NCBI GenBank assembly: GCA_026417625.1
Contig: JAOACW010000013.1
Coordinates: 1-40,608 of the forward strand
Reading direction: 5' to 3'
Length of the DNA: 40,608 bases
From: Syntrophales bacterium
GTDB lineage: Bacteria > Desulfobacterota > Syntrophia > Syntrophales > UBA8958
Below are positions 14,369-21,827 of this stretch, piece by piece. A program made the position numbers and the translations under genes. The notes beneath the pieces are model-generated. The model saw nothing but the letters and a program-made list of their open reading frames with translations, searched no databases and was not told the DNA's origin. Numbering within the stretch: the stretch's first letter is position 1; each line of letters opens with the position of its first letter.

Positions 14369-16402
14369 ATGGCATCTAAGTCTCGTCTATCTCGGATCAG
14401 AAATATCGGCATAGTGGCTCATATAGATGCGGGAAAGACCACGGTTACGGAAAGGATCCTTTATTACACTGGTCGTTCTTACAAGATGGGAGAGGTTCAT
14501 GACGGAGAAGCTGTGATGGACTGGATGCCACAGGAACAAGAACGGGGTATAACGATTACCTCGGCTGTCACCACGTGTAACTGGAGAGGACATGAAATTC
14601 ACATAATAGATACACCTGGTCATGTTGATTTTACAATTGAAGTGGAGAGGAGTTTGCGTGTTTTGGATGGGGCTGTGGTTGTCTTTTGTGCTGTAGGCGG
14701 CGTGGAACCTCAATCGGAAACTGTTTGGTATCAGGCGGATAAATACGGTGTTCCAAAGGTTGCTTTCATCAATAAAATGGACCGCGTGGGTGCTGACTTT
14801 GAGCGAACCATTGCTATGATGAACGAACGTTTTTCCTCAATTCCACTGCCAATTCAGATACCATGGGGCATAGAGGAACAATTTAACGGGGTTATTGACA
14901 TTATTAGAATGAAGGCTGTGACGTGGGATGCGGAGAGTCTTGGGTTGAAATATTCTTACTGTGAGGTACCAGAGGGAGAAAAAGAGAGGATGCTGGAGAG
15001 AAGAGAGAGATTAATTGAAACACTTGCCGAACTGGATGATAATATAATGGAAAAATATTTAAATGGACTGGAAATCTCTGAGGAAGAAATTCTCGAGGTT
15101 ATAAGAAAGGCTACTCTTGGCTTAAAAGTGGTGCCGGTTCTATGCGGTGCGGCGTTGCGCAACAAGGGCATTCAACTTCTTCTAGACGCAGTGGTAGATT
15201 TTCTCCCCTCTCCTGAGGATATACCTCCTGTAAGAGGTATTAATCCAGTGACAGGTTTGGAAGAGCGCCGTAAAAGTAGCGTGAACGAGCCTTTTTCAGC
15301 CCTTGTTTTTAAGATTATGCAGGATGAGGGTAGGAAGCTCACTTATCTTAGGATTTATTCGGGGCGATTACAAGCGGGTGCAGATGTTTTTAACATTTCT
15401 AGGGGAAAACGAGAAAAGATTTCCCGTCTTTTAAAGATGCATGCGAACAAAAGAGAACGTATAGATGAGGCAGCTGCTGGGGACATTGTGGCTGTTATGG
15501 GATTAAAAGAGGCCAAAACGGGCGATACCCTTTGTGATGAAAATTGCCCTATATTGCTCGAATCTATCGATGTTTATGAACCCGTTATCAGTCAGGCAAT
15601 AGAGGCCAAGACACCGGCTGATCAGGACAGGATAGTCTTTGCTTTAGAGAAGCTTTTGGAAGAGGATCCCACATTAAGATTTAAGTACGATGATGAAACG
15701 GCGCAGATGGTTCTCTCTGGTATGGGTGAACTACATCTGGAAATTGTCATAGACCGCCTTATAAGGGAGTTTAACGTTCATGTTAATGTAGGAAAACCAC
15801 GGGTGATGTACAGGGAGGCCATTACTGAGGCTGTAAGTGCCGTTGGTGTGTTTGAAAGAGAAATTGGAGATCGAAAGCATTTTGCAGAGGTCCATCTGTA
15901 CATGGAACCACTGGAGAGGGGTAAAGGTCTGGAGATCGTTCCACCTAAAGAAGATTTGCCCATACCTCCTGAGTTCTATGATGCCATTATGGAAGGAATA
16001 AAAGAAGCTGCCCTGAGTGGTCCCTTAGCGGGTTACCCAGTTGTGGATGTTAGGGTGGAAATCACAGGTGGATTATACCGCGAGGGCGAAGCTTCTCTTA
16101 TGGCATACAAAGTTGCTGCTTCCAGCGCCTTCAAAGAGGGATGTATTTCAGGTTCTCCTGTTCTTCTTGAACCTATTATGATTGTTGATGTAATTACCCC
16201 TTCAGATTTTTTGGGTGAAGTTATAGGGGATATCAATGCGAGAAGAGGAGAAGTACAATCACTGAGCACACGAGGACAAGTTACAGAGATAAGGGCGCGG
16301 GTACCTTTGAGGTCTATGTTTGGATATTCCACAGATTTAAGATCACTGACCCAGGGAAGGGCGACCTTTTCCATGCGCTTCAGTGTCTATGATAGATTTT
16401 GA
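14369..16402 (+). CDS. Elongation factor G family GTPase (probable second paralogue)
   Basis: A five-domain translational GTPase of 677 residues. G motifs are AHIDAGKTT (17-25), the switch-II motif DTPGH (81-85) and NKMD (135-138); the effector segment ERGITITSA is intact. Domains II to V follow, with the domain IV/V part ending [15 protein letters not shown]. It lies outside the str operon (no rpsL, rpsG or tuf nearby) and has [15 protein letters not shown] where most housekeeping EF-Gs have [15 protein letters not shown]. Both points suggest the second EF-G paralogue that many Deltaproteobacteria carry, but it could be the only copy. Its stop overlaps the potassium-channel start (TGATG). 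Confidence 0.88.
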
Positions 16403-17586
16403 TGAAAACTGACGATCTATTTTCAATGATTTTGCATAGAGTTTCTCGATTCATCCGTCACCCTTTTGTGGAGATTGGGTTTATCCTCCTCTTTGTCATT
16501 TTTATAAGCGCGTTTATAGTTTTTTGGTTTGAAACCATGGCACCTCAATCCAACATAAATTCTTTATGGGATGGCATCTGGTGGGCTGTTGTAACCATGG
16601 GAACAGTGGGTTATGGTGACAGATACCCGGTGACCACAGGTGGAAGGATAGTTGGAATTTTACTTATTTTCAGTGGTGTGGGATTGATGTCCCTTTTTAC
16701 CGCAACAGTAGCCACATTCTTCATAGAGAAAAGGTTAAAGGAGGGTAGGGGTTTGGACAGGGTAAGAAATAAGAACCACATTGTCATTTGTGGGTGGAGC
16801 GAACATGTGGATGATCTGTTACAGGGATTGGATAGTTTCGGAGTGATGGAACACCGGGAGGTTGTACTTGTAAATGAACTTTCCAGTGATGAGATAGAAG
16901 CCTTGCAAGTTAAATATGGAAAGTATAAGCTAAAATTTGTGAAGGGTAATTACGTACAAGAAGAAGTTCTTTTGCGGGCTAATGTAAAGAAGGCAGAGGC
17001 GGTGATTTTAATGGCTGATGCCTCTTGTGGTTATCAGACGGATAGAATGGATGAAAAGACGATTTTAGCGGCTCTAGCAGTAAAATCTATCGCTCCTCAC
17101 GTTCGTATTGTTGCTGAACTGTTGAAGCAGGAGAACAGAGCGCACCTAAAAAGGGCTAATGTAGATGAGATTGTGGTGAGGGACGAATATACAGCTTCCA
17201 TTCTCGCAGGAACTATAAGGTCACCAGGTTTAACTAAGGTTATTTCGGGGATACTGAATATTGACAGTTACTGTAAATTGTATCGTTTACCCATCCCACA
17301 GGAGTACATTGGGAGATCTTTTAGGGAGCTTTTCTTTCACTTCCGAGAAAGGGAAAAGGCCCTACTTTTGGGTATAATTAAGGAGAAAAAAACGATAAAG
17401 CTCGAGGATATCCTCTCGGATGATACGTCTGCTGTTGAGGTCTTCCTGCGAGAGAAGATAAAAGAGACAAAAAAGGAGTTTATGGTGGAAAGGGAGTCAG
17501 AAAGAATTGTATTGAATCCTGAAGATGATTATCCGATAGCACCGGGAGATTCGGCTATTGTTCTCATGAGTGGGAAATTATTGTAG
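16402..17586 (+). CDS. Potassium channel with TrkA-N (RCK) regulatory domain
   Basis: Two-transmembrane potassium channel subunit. Helices lie at about 26-46 and 80-105, with the selectivity filter TVGYGD (68-73) between them. A cytoplasmic RCK/TrkA-N domain starts at HIVICGWSEHVDDLL, although its dinucleotide loop departs from GxGxxG. A TrkA-C-like segment ending APGDSAIVLMSG (near 380) closes the protein. Start ATG 16402 overlaps the EF-G stop; TTG 16399 is less likely. Such channels are gated by nucleotides, ions or c-di-AMP in other bacteria. A diadenylate cyclase gene occurs at 31469, but a functional link is only inferred. Confidence 0.92.
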   Translation: MKTDDLFSMILHRVSRFIRHPFVEIGFILLFVIFISAFIVFWFETMAPQSNINSLWDGIWWAVVTMGTVGYGDRYPVTTGGRIVGILLIFSGVGLMSLFTATVATFFIEKRLKEGRGLDRVRNKNHIVICGWSEHVDDLLQGLDSFGVMEHREVVLVNELSSDEIEALQVKYGKYKLKFVKGNYVQEEVLLRANVKKAEAVILMADASCGYQTDRMDEKTILAALAVKSIAPHVRIVAELLKQENRAHLKRANVDEIVVRDEYTASILAGTIRSPGLTKVISGILNIDSYCKLYRLPIPQEYIGRSFRELFFHFREREKALLLGIIKEKKTIKLEDILSDDTSAVEVFLREKIKETKKEFMVERESERIVLNPEDDYPIAPGDSAIVLMSGKLL

Positions 17587-17595
17587 TTAGGGGCT

Positions 17596-18117
17596 GTGGC
17601 ATTGCGGGAGGATGATTATAGCGTTTTTAGTGGTTCGGAGATTTTTAGGGATTTAGACCACGTCCAAATTGGGAAAATCCTGGGTATTGCCCGAGTGGTT
17701 AAGTTCAGAGCTGGAGAGGTGATACTACGTGAGGGTGATATAGGAGATACGATGTACATAATGAAGGAGGGAACCGTTGAAGTCATAAAAAACCTTGTTC
17801 TAGTTGAGATTGAAGATAGTGAGGATAGAAAGAAAACAAAGGTTTTCACAAAACTGGAAGCGAAAGATCACGCTGTCTTTGGAGAGTTGGCATTGTTGGA
17901 TGCTATGAAGAGGACGGCTACGGTGAGAGCTGTGACTGATTGTGTGTTATATGAGATAAATAGAGCTGATTTTTTAAAACTTGCCGAAGAAGATTGTAAA
18001 TTGGGTTACCGTGTAATTTTGAACCTGGCAAAGATAATTGGTGCCCGTTTAAGAAAAGCTGATGAGGAAACGGTGAAGTTAACCACAATTTTGAGCATTG
18101 TATTAAGCGAGGTGTGA
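17596..18117 (+). CDS. Cyclic nucleotide-binding domain protein, no effector domain
   Basis: A 173-residue protein consisting almost wholly of one cyclic nucleotide-binding (Crp-type) beta barrel. The roll begins FRDLDHVQIGKIL, then FRAGEVILREGDIGDTMYIMKEGTVEVI. The phosphate-binding cassette-like segment FGELALLDAMKRTATVRA is at about 95-112. The C-terminal helix lacks a helix-turn-helix, so it is not a Crp-like DNA-binding protein. The arginine in KRTATV may meet the cyclic phosphate. It sits 9 bases after the potassium channel and 1 base before the sigma-54 activator, so it may pass a nucleotide signal to one of them; which one cannot be told. Confidence 0.88.
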   Translation: MALREDDYSVFSGSEIFRDLDHVQIGKILGIARVVKFRAGEVILREGDIGDTMYIMKEGTVEVIKNLVLVEIEDSEDRKKTKVFTKLEAKDHAVFGELALLDAMKRTATVRAVTDCVLYEINRADFLKLAEEDCKLGYRVILNLAKIIGARLRKADEETVKLTTILSIVLSEV

Positions 18118-18118
18118 C

Positions 18119-20233
18119 GTGATTATCACGCTTCTAGATAAAGATAAGCTTCTGGACAGCATATTCAGGGTAAGCACTTTGCTAACCGCGGATGCCGATC
18201 TTTCGGTGATACAGACAAAAATACTCGAAGAGCTGCTTTATACCCTTGATTTTGACAGGGGCATGATTCGTTTCTTCGACTCCACTAGGCGTTATCTAGA
18301 AGTTCAGGTAGTGAAAAATTTTCCTTTAGAGGAGGAAAAAAGGGCTTTTGACTTAGCGCTCGATGTGACACGTCACAATTGCCTTTCTACTTTTGTGGCA
18401 AGATCTGGTGAGATTGCTATTGTGGAAAAGGCAGTTAGAGATTCCAGGATTACGTCACTGGACCGATACATTACGAGCTTGGCAGAAAAAGGGTCGGTCA
18501 TCTGCGTGCCCTTAAAAGTAGGGGATAGCGTAATTGGCACTATGGAGGCATGGCGGGAGGAGGAGAGTATTTTCTATCCAGAGGAAATCAGTATTATTCA
18601 GGCTTTTGCGAATCAAATGAGCATAATCATACAGAACGCCCGACTGTTGAAAGCAGGTGAGGAGAAGATTAGACAGCTTACGGTGTTGCAGGAGGTTGTC
18701 TCTGAGCTTAACGTATATAGCACGTTAGATGATGGAATTTTGAAGATTGTTCTTCGTGGTGCTAAAGAGATTACTGGTGCCGACAGTGCAATAGTATACT
18801 TCTGCGACTTGCAGCGGGATCGCTGTATGGTGGCTGATGAGAACAATTCTGTAATTGACGCTAGAGATGGATTTGATGAAAGGATGGGCAAAAGTAGTTT
18901 TCTCATTAAAGAAGCGATTGAGAGCGGAAATTTCGTTGTAAAACAGTTGCCCGTGGAAATTCCCCCGATGGAGTCCGATACCCCATATTTCACAACTCGG
19001 ACGGAGCTGGCAATACCCTTTGCAATAAGGGACAGATTCAAAGGTGCGCTTTATCTCTCAAAAAACAAAGGTAGTTTCACTGAGGATCAAATCAATGCGC
19101 TAGATATTTTGGTTAAGAACGCAGCTACGACATACGATAATGCCATTATGAATTCTCTTCTCCACCAGGAGGCGGAATCCCTCAAATCAGAACTGGAGAG
19201 AATGAAAGAGAGAGAAGATAAATTACTGGGTTTCCAAGATATTCTGGGCAAGTCAGAAAAAATGTTGGAGATTTTTCGGATCATTGCAGATGTTGCTGGC
19301 CATAATACCAACATTCTCATACAGGGGGAGAGTGGAACGGGCAAGGAATTGGTAGCTAGAGCAATTCATCGCCACTCTCCTAGGAGCAACAAACCTTTTG
19401 TAGATGTCAATTGTGCTGCCATCCCCCCAACACTCCTTGAAAGTGAGCTTTTTGGGTATGAAGCAGGAGCTTTTACCGACGCCCGGAAGAGAAAAATAGG
19501 TCTCCTGGAATACGCGAATGGTGGGACTATGCTTCTCGACGAGATAGGTGAGATGAACATTCAACTGCAGGCGAAATTCCTCCGGATGTTGGAAGATGGG
19601 CATATCCGACGTCTTGGAGGTACAGAAAAGATTCCTATTGATGTTCGTTTTATCTTCTCCACAAATCGTGATCTTGCAGAAATGGTGTCGAAGGGTACTT
19701 TTCGGGAAGACCTATTCTACAGGATAAGGGTTGTGCCTATCGTTATACCACCTCTAAGAGAAAGACCGGATGATATAATTCTGTTAGCTAACCATTTTGT
19801 GAAGGAGTTTAATCAGAAGTTTCGCAAAAAAATTAGGGGATTTGATAAGGAGACTGAACGAATACTCCAAGATTATCCATGGCCTGGAAATGTAAGAGAA
19901 CTGAGGAACATCATTGAAAGGGTTATGATTTTGAAAAATAAAGGCAAATTTATCACCGCTGATGATTTGCCCAGAGAGATTGTAAGGGGCAGTCAATCAA
20001 AGTCAGATTGGCTTATTGAACCCCTTTTGGATCAACTTCCCTTTGATGGTATTGACTACAAGAAAGTAACAGAAAAAATCCTCTTAGATATAAAGAACCG
20101 TCTTCTCCAGAACGCCCTTATTAAAGCTCGAGGAAATAAGTCTGAGGCTGCTCGACGATTGGGTATTTCAAGGTTTAAGCTTATAAGGGAACAAAAGAAA
20201 TTGGCCCAAAAACTCTCAAGCGATATCCACTGA
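18119..20233 (+). CDS. Sigma-54-dependent transcriptional activator, GAF-GAF-AAA-Fis
   Basis: A 704-residue enhancer-binding protein. Two GAF sensor domains occupy about 20-175 and 200-340, joined by a coiled coil to the AAA+ domain at about 375-610. Walker A is GESGTGKE (403-410) and Walker B is MLLDEI (471-476). The sigma-54 contact loop reads GAFTDA (450-455), not the usual GAFTGA. RFIFSTNRDL and FREDLFYRIRVV are the sensor regions. A Fis-type helix-turn-helix ends the protein (GNKSEAARRLGISRFKLIR, about 672-690). GTG 18119 has GCGAGGT upstream and starts one base after the preceding stop. The next 500 bases hold a -24/-12 promoter and phased inverted half-sites, a likely target. Confidence 0.94.
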   Translation: MIITLLDKDKLLDSIFRVSTLLTADADLSVIQTKILEELLYTLDFDRGMIRFFDSTRRYLEVQVVKNFPLEEEKRAFDLALDVTRHNCLSTFVARSGEIAIVEKAVRDSRITSLDRYITSLAEKGSVICVPLKVGDSVIGTMEAWREEESIFYPEEISIIQAFANQMSIIIQNARLLKAGEEKIRQLTVLQEVVSELNVYSTLDDGILKIVLRGAKEITGADSAIVYFCDLQRDRCMVADENNSVIDARDGFDERMGKSSFLIKEAIESGNFVVKQLPVEIPPMESDTPYFTTRTELAIPFAIRDRFKGALYLSKNKGSFTEDQINALDILVKNAATTYDNAIMNSLLHQEAESLKSELERMKEREDKLLGFQDILGKSEKMLEIFRIIADVAGHNTNILIQGESGTGKELVARAIHRHSPRSNKPFVDVNCAAIPPTLLESELFGYEAGAFTDARKRKIGLLEYANGGTMLLDEIGEMNIQLQAKFLRMLEDGHIRRLGGTEKIPIDVRFIFSTNRDLAEMVSKGTFREDLFYRIRVVPIVIPPLRERPDDIILLANHFVKEFNQKFRKKIRGFDKETERILQDYPWPGNVRELRNIIERVMILKNKGKFITADDLPREIVRGSQSKSDWLIEPLLDQLPFDGIDYKKVTEKILLDIKNRLLQNALIKARGNKSEAARRLGISRFKLIREQKKLAQKLSSDIH

Positions 20234-20243
20234 ATTATTCTGC

Positions 20244-20278
20244 GTGCGGGAAATGCACGGTCTGTGCAATTTATGCAC
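20244..20278. promoter_or_regulatory. Phased inverted half-sites, candidate enhancer (UAS)
   Basis: Half-sites alternate in orientation at exact 10-base steps: GTGCG at 20244, TGCAC at 20254, GTGCA at 20264 and TGCAC at 20274. The last two form a palindrome, TCTGTGCA-N5-TGCACAGA (20261-20281). They lie on one helix face, 150-185 bases upstream of the sigma-54 promoter, immediately after the activator gene. This is the usual geometry of an enhancer for such activators. Confidence 0.6.
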
Positions 20279-20331
20279 AGATTAGTGGTATGGTCATATT
20301 ACTGCTAGATCGTTCTTTTCATTCCTATAGT

Positions 20332-20360
20332 GTGCGTTAAGCGCACGTTTTTATTTTTTT
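20332..20360 (+). terminator. Terminator of the activator gene, overlapping a third half-site pair
   Basis: GTGCG (20332-20336), loop TTAAG and CGCAC (20342-20346) form a short stem followed by GTTTTTATTTTTTT. It can end the K-channel/activator transcript about 100 bases past the stop. The stem is only 5 bp, extendable by wobble pairs. The same GTGCG-N5-CGCAC spacing matches the enhancer half-sites at 20244-20278, so the element may also bind the activator, about 84 bases upstream of the -24 box. Confidence 0.55.
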
Positions 20361-20429: not shown

Positions 20430-20445
20430 TGGCATGCGAATTGCA
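20430..20445 (+). promoter_or_regulatory. Sigma-54 (-24/-12) promoter
   Basis: TGGCATG-N4-TTGCA, matching the RpoN consensus TGGCAYG-N4-TTGCW at every defined position. GG is at 20431-20432 and GC at 20443-20444, exactly ten bases apart. The expected start of transcription is near 20456. The only annotated sequence downstream on this strand is the small-RNA/micropeptide region that follows. Confidence 0.8.
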
Positions 20446-20464
20446 TATAAAATAGTAGTGGTTG

Positions 20465-20557
20465 ATGAGTGAAGCTGGGTTTTATGACAGGCTTGGTTGT
20501 GGCGTTTGTGATGGAAGTGGATGTGGGTATGAGCGAAAATTGGAAACATTGGGATAG
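20465..20557 (+). CDS. Possible 30-residue cysteine-rich peptide
   Basis: ATG to TAG frame of 30 codons. The middle reads LGCGVCDGSGCGYE, with three cysteines (C12, C15, C20) and glycine-rich spacing, flanked by acidic and basic ends (MSEAGFYDR and ERKLETLG). The pattern resembles small metal- or thiol-binding knuckles, but I do not recognise a family. Against translation, the predicted transcription start leaves only about nine bases before the ATG and there is no good ribosome-binding site. It may be chance sequence in a small RNA. Confidence 0.35.
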   Translation: MSEAGFYDRLGCGVCDGSGCGYERKLETLG

Positions 20558-20700
20558 ATTTTAAGCTCTTTCTCTCCAAAGAGTAGTAGAATTTCCTAGC
20601 CGGTGGGTGGTTTTTCCCTCCTTTCCACCCACCGCCCCCCCCTTCAGATATCGTACACTGAAAGGGCTTTTTTATAGTCCTTTCAGTTTAACATATTTTT

Positions 20701-20734
20701 GGTGGATGGTTACATGGTAACCCTCCACCTTTTT
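20701..20734 (+). terminator. Strong rho-independent terminator of the sigma-54 transcript
   Basis: Outer stem GGTGGA/TCCACC and inner stem GGTTAC/GTAACC with one mismatch, a 3-nt loop and then TTTTT (20730-20734). The T run is on the plus strand and touches the ychF stop codon, so it ends the plus-strand transcript and not ychF. Confidence 0.75.
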
Positions 20735-21827
20735 ACACGTGAAACTTGAACAAAGCTATATCGCCATCTTTCATTATGTATTCTTTACCTTCAGACCTAA
20801 TAAGCCCTTTTTCTCTTGCGTGTGTTAGACTTGGTGTTTTTATGAAATCGTTGTAGTTAATGATCTCTGCACGAATAAAACCCTTTTCCATATCGCTGTG
20901 TATTTTCCCAGCTGCTTGAGGTGCCTTTGTGCCTTGAGGAATTGTCCACGCCCTTAGTTCTGAACCAACGGTGGTGTAGAATGTTATAAGGTTAAGAAGA
21001 TCGTACCCTTCTCTTATTAGTTTTACGAGACCGGATTCTTCCAATCCCATACTATCCAGAAAGGCCTTCCGATCTTCTGGAGGAAGTTCAATCATTTCAG
21101 CTTCAAGATCACCGCAGATCACAATTACTTTTGCACCTTCCCGAAGGGCGATCTCAGTGATCTTTTCGACGTCACTACTTTTTTCTTTTAAATCTGTTTC
21201 ACCTACATTTGCTACGTATAGGACTTTTTTTCCCGTTAAGAGATGGAGATCTTTCAAAAACCCTTTTTCCTCTTCCTCCAGTCTAAGTGTATGAATGGGT
21301 ATACCCCTGTTTAACATGTCTTCTAACATACTGTAAAACTCTAATTGTTTCGCCGCTACTCTGTCTCCCCCTTTTGCTGCTTTCTCTGTACGAGCGATTC
21401 TTCTGCTCAGTGTCTCTAGATCGGCTAATATAAGCTCTGTTGTCACGATCTCGATATCTCTTACGGGATCAATTGAACCGTACATGTGGGCTACGTCGGG
21501 ATTTTGAAAACACCTCACGATGTGAATTACAGCATCTACTTCTCTTATATGTCCAAGAAATTTATTTCCCAAGCCTTCTCCTTTGCTTGCTCCTCTTACA
21601 AGACCGGCAATGTCGTAAAATTCCATTACAGTAGGGGTAACTCTGGGAGGGTTTAGGATTTTGGCCAGATTATCCAGGCGCGGATCGGGTACAGGGACAA
21701 TACCCACATTTGGCTCAATGGTGCAAAAAGGATAGTTGGCTACTTGTGCACCCGCTGCGGTGAGGGCGTTAAAAATTGTTGATTTACCCACGTTTGGGAG
21801 GCCTATGATACCGCAGCGAAAACCCAT
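20733..21827 (-). CDS. ychF: Ribosome-binding ATPase YchF/OLA1
   Basis: Obg-family P-loop protein that prefers ATP to GTP, associated with ribosomes and stress response. The 364-residue chain has the G1 loop GLPNVGKS (8-15), YDIAGLVRGAS as the DxxG region, and the altered G4 motif NVGE in place of NKxD that gives ATP specificity. A coiled-coil insert sits at about 130-200. The C-terminal TGS domain includes FYTTVGSELRAWTIPQGTKAPQAAG. It has its own promoter, and the hppA terminator separates it from the pth-hppA operon that usually runs into it. Confidence 0.96.
   Translation of the reverse strand: MGFRCGIIGLPNVGKSTIFNALTAAGAQVANYPFCTIEPNVGIVPVPDPRLDNLAKILNPPRVTPTVMEFYDIAGLVRGASKGEGLGNKFLGHIREVDAVIHIVRCFQNPDVAHMYGSIDPVRDIEIVTTELILADLETLSRRIARTEKAAKGGDRVAAKQLEFYSMLEDMLNRGIPIHTLRLEEEEKGFLKDLHLLTGKKVLYVANVGETDLKEKSSDVEKITEIALREGAKVIVICGDLEAEMIELPPEDRKAFLDSMGLEESGLVKLIREGYDLLNLITFYTTVGSELRAWTIPQGTKAPQAAGKIHSDMEKGFIRAEIINYNDFIKTPSLTHAREKGLIRSEGKEYIMKDGDIALFKFHV

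Follow-up and report, generated by a model that had tools for sequence, protein, structure and literature searches.

The inverted repeats that lie between the gene of a sigma54 activator and a sigma54 promoter in this Syntrophales genome are very probably an enhancer of three sites, dedicated to a conserved RNA that has not been catalogued and not to a protein operon. Six half-sites are read in the window, by which we mean the whole 40,608-nucleotide stretch of DNA that was analysed (GTGCG at 20244, TGCAC at 20254, GTGCA at 20264, TGCAC at 20274, GTGCG at 20332 and CGCAC at 20342). They pair into three GTGCR-N5-YGCAC dyads with 5-bp spacers (Table 1), the middle one lying in a perfect 21-bp palindrome, TCTGTGCA-ATTTA-TGCACAGA (20261-20281). 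The sequence confirms these six positions as an earlier note on this DNA had given them, and its placing of the array 84-186 bp upstream of the -24 box is borne out by the promoter TGGCATGCGAATTGCA, which starts at 20430. Centre to centre the dyads are spaced 20 bp and then 68 bp, and since 68 bp amounts to ~6.5 helical turns the third dyad does not share the helical phase of the first two. The array is a rigid set of three dimer sites, not the helically phased half-site 'code' that the note had proposed, whose 10-bp phasing merely restates the geometry of a dyad; nor is it an open-ended tandem array, as there are exactly three dyads and no other copies in this genome.

Exact GTGCR-N5-YGCAC sites number four in the whole 1.79-Mb genome, three of them in this array. 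The fourth (C2:134052), with a score of 9.3, lacks a sigma54 promoter within 1.5 kb. A genome-wide search for a second tandem pair at up to three mismatches returned four matches, one of them this array, against three for a reversed-pattern control. With nothing beyond this locus and tandem pairs at the level of the control, a strict-dyad regulon in this genome was rejected; here the array has no evident target other than the RNA.

Table 1 Features at and around the dyad array (positions in the window)
Feature	Position	Strand	Basis
Elongation factor G gene (fusA), head of conserved cluster	14369..16402	+	NCBIfam EF-G 2e-274; synteny
K+ channel-type protein, RCK/TrkA_N domain	16399..17586	+	Domain match; synteny
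cNMP-binding domain protein, 5′ of activator gene	17596..18117	+	Pfam 1.7e-21; position kept in many relatives
Sigma54 activator (bEBP), 704 aa, GAF-GAF-AAA+-Fis HTH	18119..20233	+	Pfam Sigma54_activat 9.4e-69, GAF domains
Upstream activating site (UAS), probable, dyad 1, GTGCG-GGAAA-TGCAC	20244..20258	.	Sequence; PWM score 17.1; first site of 20/68 array kept at orthologous loci
UAS, probable, dyad 2, GTGCA-ATTTA-TGCAC	20264..20278	.	Sequence; spacing to dyad 1, 20 bp; PWM score 21.6
UAS, probable, dyad 3, GTGCG-TTAAG-CGCAC	20332..20346	.	Sequence; spacing to dyad 2, 68 bp; PWM score 22.2
Sigma54 promoter (-24/-12), TGGCATGCGAATTGCA	20430..20445	+	Only + strand match in window to TGGYA-N6-YYGCW
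Predicted sigma54-dependent RNA, ~280 nt	about 20456..20734	+	Promoter-to-terminator interval; fold z-score -2.65
HP1, defining hairpin, CGGTGGGTGG-TTTTTCCCTCCTTT-CCACCCACCG, loop CCCUCCUUU	20601..20634	+	CM R1 E=2.2e-13, own genome
HP2, ACTGAAAGGG...TCCTTTCAGT	20657..20687	+	Predicted fold; CTGAAAGG/CCTTTCAG helix kept in relatives, two-sided changes
Terminator hairpin HP3 with its U-tract, GGTGGATGG...CCCTCCACC-TTTTT	20701..20734	+	Predicted fold, relatives compared
Gene of presumed YchF-like GTPase, convergent with RNA	20733..21827	-	ORF; synteny with relatives

The setting of the dyads is that of the upstream activating sequences of bEBPs: they lie within roughly 80-250 bp 5′ of a -24/-12 promoter, the adjacent activator has an AAA+ sigma54-interaction domain, a GAFTGA-type loop and an HTH, and the distance to the promoter varies between loci around a fixed internal spacing. 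The activator ends in a Fis-type HTH_8 domain (Pfam, E=5e-7), and its AAA+ loop, as read in the ORF, is GAFTDA, which is among the functional GAFTGA-type loop variants (PMC4641369). Scores against the NCBIfam equivalogs fell short of the cut-offs for NorR (317 against 476 bits), NifA (363 against 529 bits) and FhlA (292 against 830 bits); the protein was not assigned to any of the three, and its likeness to NorR is one of working mode at most. It is encoded last in a cluster ordered fusA, K+-channel protein, cNMP-binding protein, activator. Between the sigma54 promoter and the convergent gene beyond it, whose product we take to be a YchF-like GTPase, there is no convincing protein gene; three hairpins are found there instead.

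We collected orthologues of the activator from relatives and compared the DNA 3′ of their stop codons. Nearly every one is followed by the same array, a sigma54 promoter and an HP1-type hairpin, and an equivalent promoter is present with nearly all related arrays. Of 75 distinct loci of the hairpin RNA for which sufficient upstream DNA was available, three sites were recognised at 59, two at 10 and no array at 6, counts that were obtained with a scoring matrix trained on exact palindromes of the same order and that are not independent events, many of the loci being akin. Among the 59 three-site arrays, 55 have a first gap of 20 bp, and the second gap is 62-70 bp (mode 68), with site 3 lying 80-182 bp from the -24 box across loci; the same matrix applied to 414 kb of neighbouring DNA as a control gave 18 single matches and no pair. 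A fixed internal geometry combined with a floating promoter distance is as expected of an enhancer-bound oligomer acting by looping, and, with ~6.5 turns in the 68-bp interval, the sites are not as a rule all in strict helical phase.

At two loci (L019, L021) the array is missing beside the activator, and in these genomes the hairpin RNA sits elsewhere (G028 C36) or 1.9 kb downstream (G022), with a sigma54 promoter and a pair of dyads, at a spacing of 22 or 20 bp, in front of it. Because the array goes with the RNA, it belongs to the promoter of the RNA and not to the activator gene. It is likewise kept with the RNA promoter, unlinked from the activator, in G028 (L142), in G044 (L144) and in second copies at other loci. 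These copies, found in some genomes, comprise promoter, RNA and an array with gaps of 20/65 or 20/68, and lie at L068, L076, L088, L132, L119 and L129. In G044 (C1:1969277-1970776) the activator match ends at query residue 508 of 704, the RNA, a small ORF and two dyads persisting, and the activator there may be truncated. The genome G031 belongs to a genus, g25, that lacks the activator, and it has no activator orthologue and, at its hairpin locus, no array and no sigma54 promoter; two HP1-type hairpins lie directly behind its fusA (L145 1580-1940). Taken together, these comparisons indicate that the dyads very probably serve the neighbouring sigma54 activator as its upstream activating sites. 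To that extent the earlier proposal of a binding array for this protein stands, on a spacing kept in dozens of relatives, on an array that follows the promoter when unlinked and on its absence from the activator-less lineage; what falls away is the 'code'.

We placed the start of the predicted RNA from the -12 box and its end at the U-tract, transcription itself being a prediction. Its defining hairpin, HP1, has 99% of cells paired and four pairs with two-sided change, and none of 500 shuffles reached its covariation score; the loop (UUUUUCCCUCCUUU as DNA in the window), which is predicted to be unpaired, hardly varies, and neither does part of the stem. A C-tract rather than a U-tract lies 3′ of HP1, which is therefore not an intrinsic terminator. 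The helix of HP3 also shows two-sided changes in relatives, most of which carry a second CCCUCC loop on HP3; the window copy does not. For the window RNA and 11 related loci there was no Rfam family match above the gathering threshold. We conclude that this is a structured RNA with compensatory changes, uncatalogued in Rfam.

Ahead of HP1, ~18 of 26 activator-adjacent loci have a ~70-aa ORF with paired FFLS and FFLPE motifs (between the sigma54 promoter and HP1 at L004-L010, L014, L015, L017, L022 and L025-L029), and this small protein has no Pfam match and often no obvious Shine-Dalgarno sequence. The window RNA has a short ORF that is rich in Cys (MSEAGFYDRLGCGVCDGSGCGYERKLETLG); being neither conserved nor matched in Pfam, it was set aside. 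The 5′ part of the RNA at L023, L024 and L026 has an extra hairpin with arms GAGACC...GGTCTC that replaces or accompanies the small ORF, and at L042/L043 the RNA is shortened, with ~100 nt before HP1.

With a covariance model the hairpin RNA was detected in 86 of the order's 149 genomes (Syntrophales-type MAGs); in a 297-genome sample of the phylum the model found four genomes, all of this order and none outside it. When GTDB genomes were scanned with a hairpin pattern, 70 stretches matched, and 66 of them are in records titled Syntrophales, Syntrophaceae, Syntrophus or with broader proteobacterial names; the four unrelated matches (Pseudoalteromonas, Flavobacteriales, Colwellia, Verrucomicrobiales) have no array and no promoter and were taken as chance. 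Activator orthologues, full-length or partial, are present in 76 of the 149 genomes, and the two features occur together in 75, neither in 62, the RNA only in 11 and the activator only in 1, a co-occurrence that partly reflects linkage. Some of these 12 discordant genomes can be attributed to the incompleteness of MAGs.

A strict tandem-pair search over 155 genomes found mainly RNA loci. In one family (f13), arrays spaced 19-20 bp, some with a recognisable third site, stand with sigma54 promoters before other genes, which we read by eye: sucC (succinyl-CoA ligase beta; L202, L207, L210) and porG (2-oxoacid:ferredoxin oxidoreductase gamma; L203, L205, L208, L209, L211). At L204 (~1500-2100), three dyads with gaps of 20 and 71 and a near-consensus sigma54 box are followed by oadG/oadB-like sodium-pump decarboxylase genes; these adjoin genes resembling ATP synthase membrane subunits. 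Since array and promoter together also precede sucC and porG in this family, the array is a portable operator. Its distribution suggests that the regulon has expanded in this one family and points to central energy metabolism as the sphere of the activator.

From these comparisons we consider it likely that the locus would work through a three-dimer enhancer, an adjacent activator and looping to the sigma54 promoter. Three dimers of the GAF-GAF-AAA+-Fis activator would occupy the three GTGC-N7-GCAC dyads, whose fixed 20 + 68 bp layout would scaffold one active hexamer, as with NorR. DNA looping would then bring the hexamer to sigma54-RNA polymerase at the -24/-12 element, and the promoter would fire upon a signal sensed by the GAF domains. 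The product would be the ~280-nt RNA, with HP1 as its conserved core and the HP1 loop exposed as an anti-Shine-Dalgarno-like sequence. By analogy, the chances are about even that this RNA acts in trans by pairing with the ribosome-binding sites of target mRNAs, and this is the weakest step of the mechanism. Complements of the loop (AAAGGAGGG) occur 56 times in this genome against 43 for the reversed pattern and are not clearly enriched. We take the HP1 loop to be identical to the host's own anti-Shine-Dalgarno sequence; a 16S 3′ end was not found in this assembly or in the four relatives searched, where two matches were not 16S 3′ ends.

The words GTGC and GCAC are short enough to cluster by accident, and the window holds 183 such half-sites. 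Windows simulated with the same dinucleotide make-up, however, contain a mean of 0.05 dyads, none of 300 had three dyads inside a 120-bp span or a pair spaced exactly 20 bp, and the layout is kept in dozens of loci; chance clustering was rejected on these grounds, and its probability is negligible. Alternatively, the dyads might be operators that lie by accident between activator gene and promoter and serve some other DNA-binding protein, such as a CRP/FNR-like or repressor dimer, with the activator binding elsewhere. A generic dimer palindrome would suit such a protein, and the cluster does encode a protein with a cNMP-binding domain, but no DNA-binding domain was detected in it, and several loci with the activator directly behind fusA lack this protein and retain the array. 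Array, sigma54 promoter and activator are moreover gained and lost together, and we regard a foreign operator as quite improbable; sites for the neighbouring activator are the reading we retain.

What the RNA does admits of other answers too. It might be mainly the mRNA of the FFLS...FFLPE protein, with HP1-HP3 merely its 3′ untranslated region and terminator, as the frequency of the ORF at activator-adjacent loci would allow. Yet HP1 is kept where the ORF is missing, in the window RNA and at L016, L018, L020, L023, L024 and L030, as well as in the shortened copies, where no ORF was seen by eye between promoter and hairpin, and the C-tract behind HP1 does not make an intrinsic terminator; this explanation is unlikely. 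A rather more serious possibility, though still one we doubt, is that the loop of the hairpin serves to bind a protein or to sponge another RNA and does not pair with Shine-Dalgarno sequences. Near-invariance of a loop together with part of its stem is typical of protein sites, and the modest count of loop complements in this genome fits the same idea; on the other side, the CCUCC loops of NfeR1/alpha-r14 pair with translation start regions (PMC10746234).

A bolder reading, which we consider less likely than not, is a regulatory module that defines the Syntrophales lineage, in which a metabolite-sensing sigma54 activator behind fusA drives an RNA that mimics the 16S tail and tunes translation via Shine-Dalgarno occupancy, and in which the enhancer has been copied to sucC, porG and a sodium-pump decarboxylase. 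If true, one signal would control energy metabolism both directly and via the RNA. For a mostly uncultured, energy-limited syntrophic order, the analysis provides a defined activator, a searchable operator of fixed geometry and an RNA family absent from Rfam, and the layout of three dyads offers a natural way to test how bEBP dimers are arranged along DNA to build a hexamer. Because the copies before sucC and porG suggest a central-energy signal, both the sensed ligand and the targets of the RNA are directly testable.

A sigma54 activator with a non-coding RNA nearby is already known as a kind; in the sources searched, this activator, this operator and this RNA family seem not to have been described before. 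The Qrr RNAs of Vibrio are a catalogued family, unlike the window RNA, which matches no Rfam family. In Vibrio the sigma54 activator LuxO switches on these regulatory RNAs (PMC10162802), an arrangement like the one proposed here but with a different sensor class. In Desulfovibrio vulgaris, the sigma54 activators DVU0653, DVU0679 and DVU2359 are predicted to control a non-coding RNA, which for DVU0653 and DVU0679 lies just downstream of the activator's own gene (PMC4641369). Unlike the window activator these two are two-component response regulators, and the likeness of the pairs is one of description; in the phylum sample the window hairpin was detected in no genome from beyond the order.

The anti-Shine-Dalgarno ('cuckoo') sRNAs of Alphaproteobacteria, NfeR1/alpha-r14 and CcsR, have several hairpins with C-rich anti-Shine-Dalgarno loops, CCUCCUCCC (PMC10746234, PMC10253847), and the CcsR RNAs of Rhodobacter are co-transcribed with the gene of a small protein, CcaF1 (71 aa, DUF1127; PMC10253847). 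The RNA described here has another sequence, comes from another phylum and has a predicted promoter of another class (CcsR has RpoHI/RpoHII promoters), and its small protein has no Pfam match. It resembles them in its hairpins with C-rich anti-Shine-Dalgarno loops, that of HP1 being predicted unpaired and similar, not identical, to theirs, and in the small-protein ORF ahead of HP1 in many relatives. At the level of the enhancer the nearest comparison is NorR, whose three enhancer sites at norVW in E. coli are essential and scaffold the oligomer (PMC2941729). The window system has another site sequence, an RNA rather than norVW as its target and two GAF domains in place of one, and it shares with NorR a GAF-AAA+-Fis activator and three enhancer sites 5′ of a sigma54 promoter (PMC2941729).
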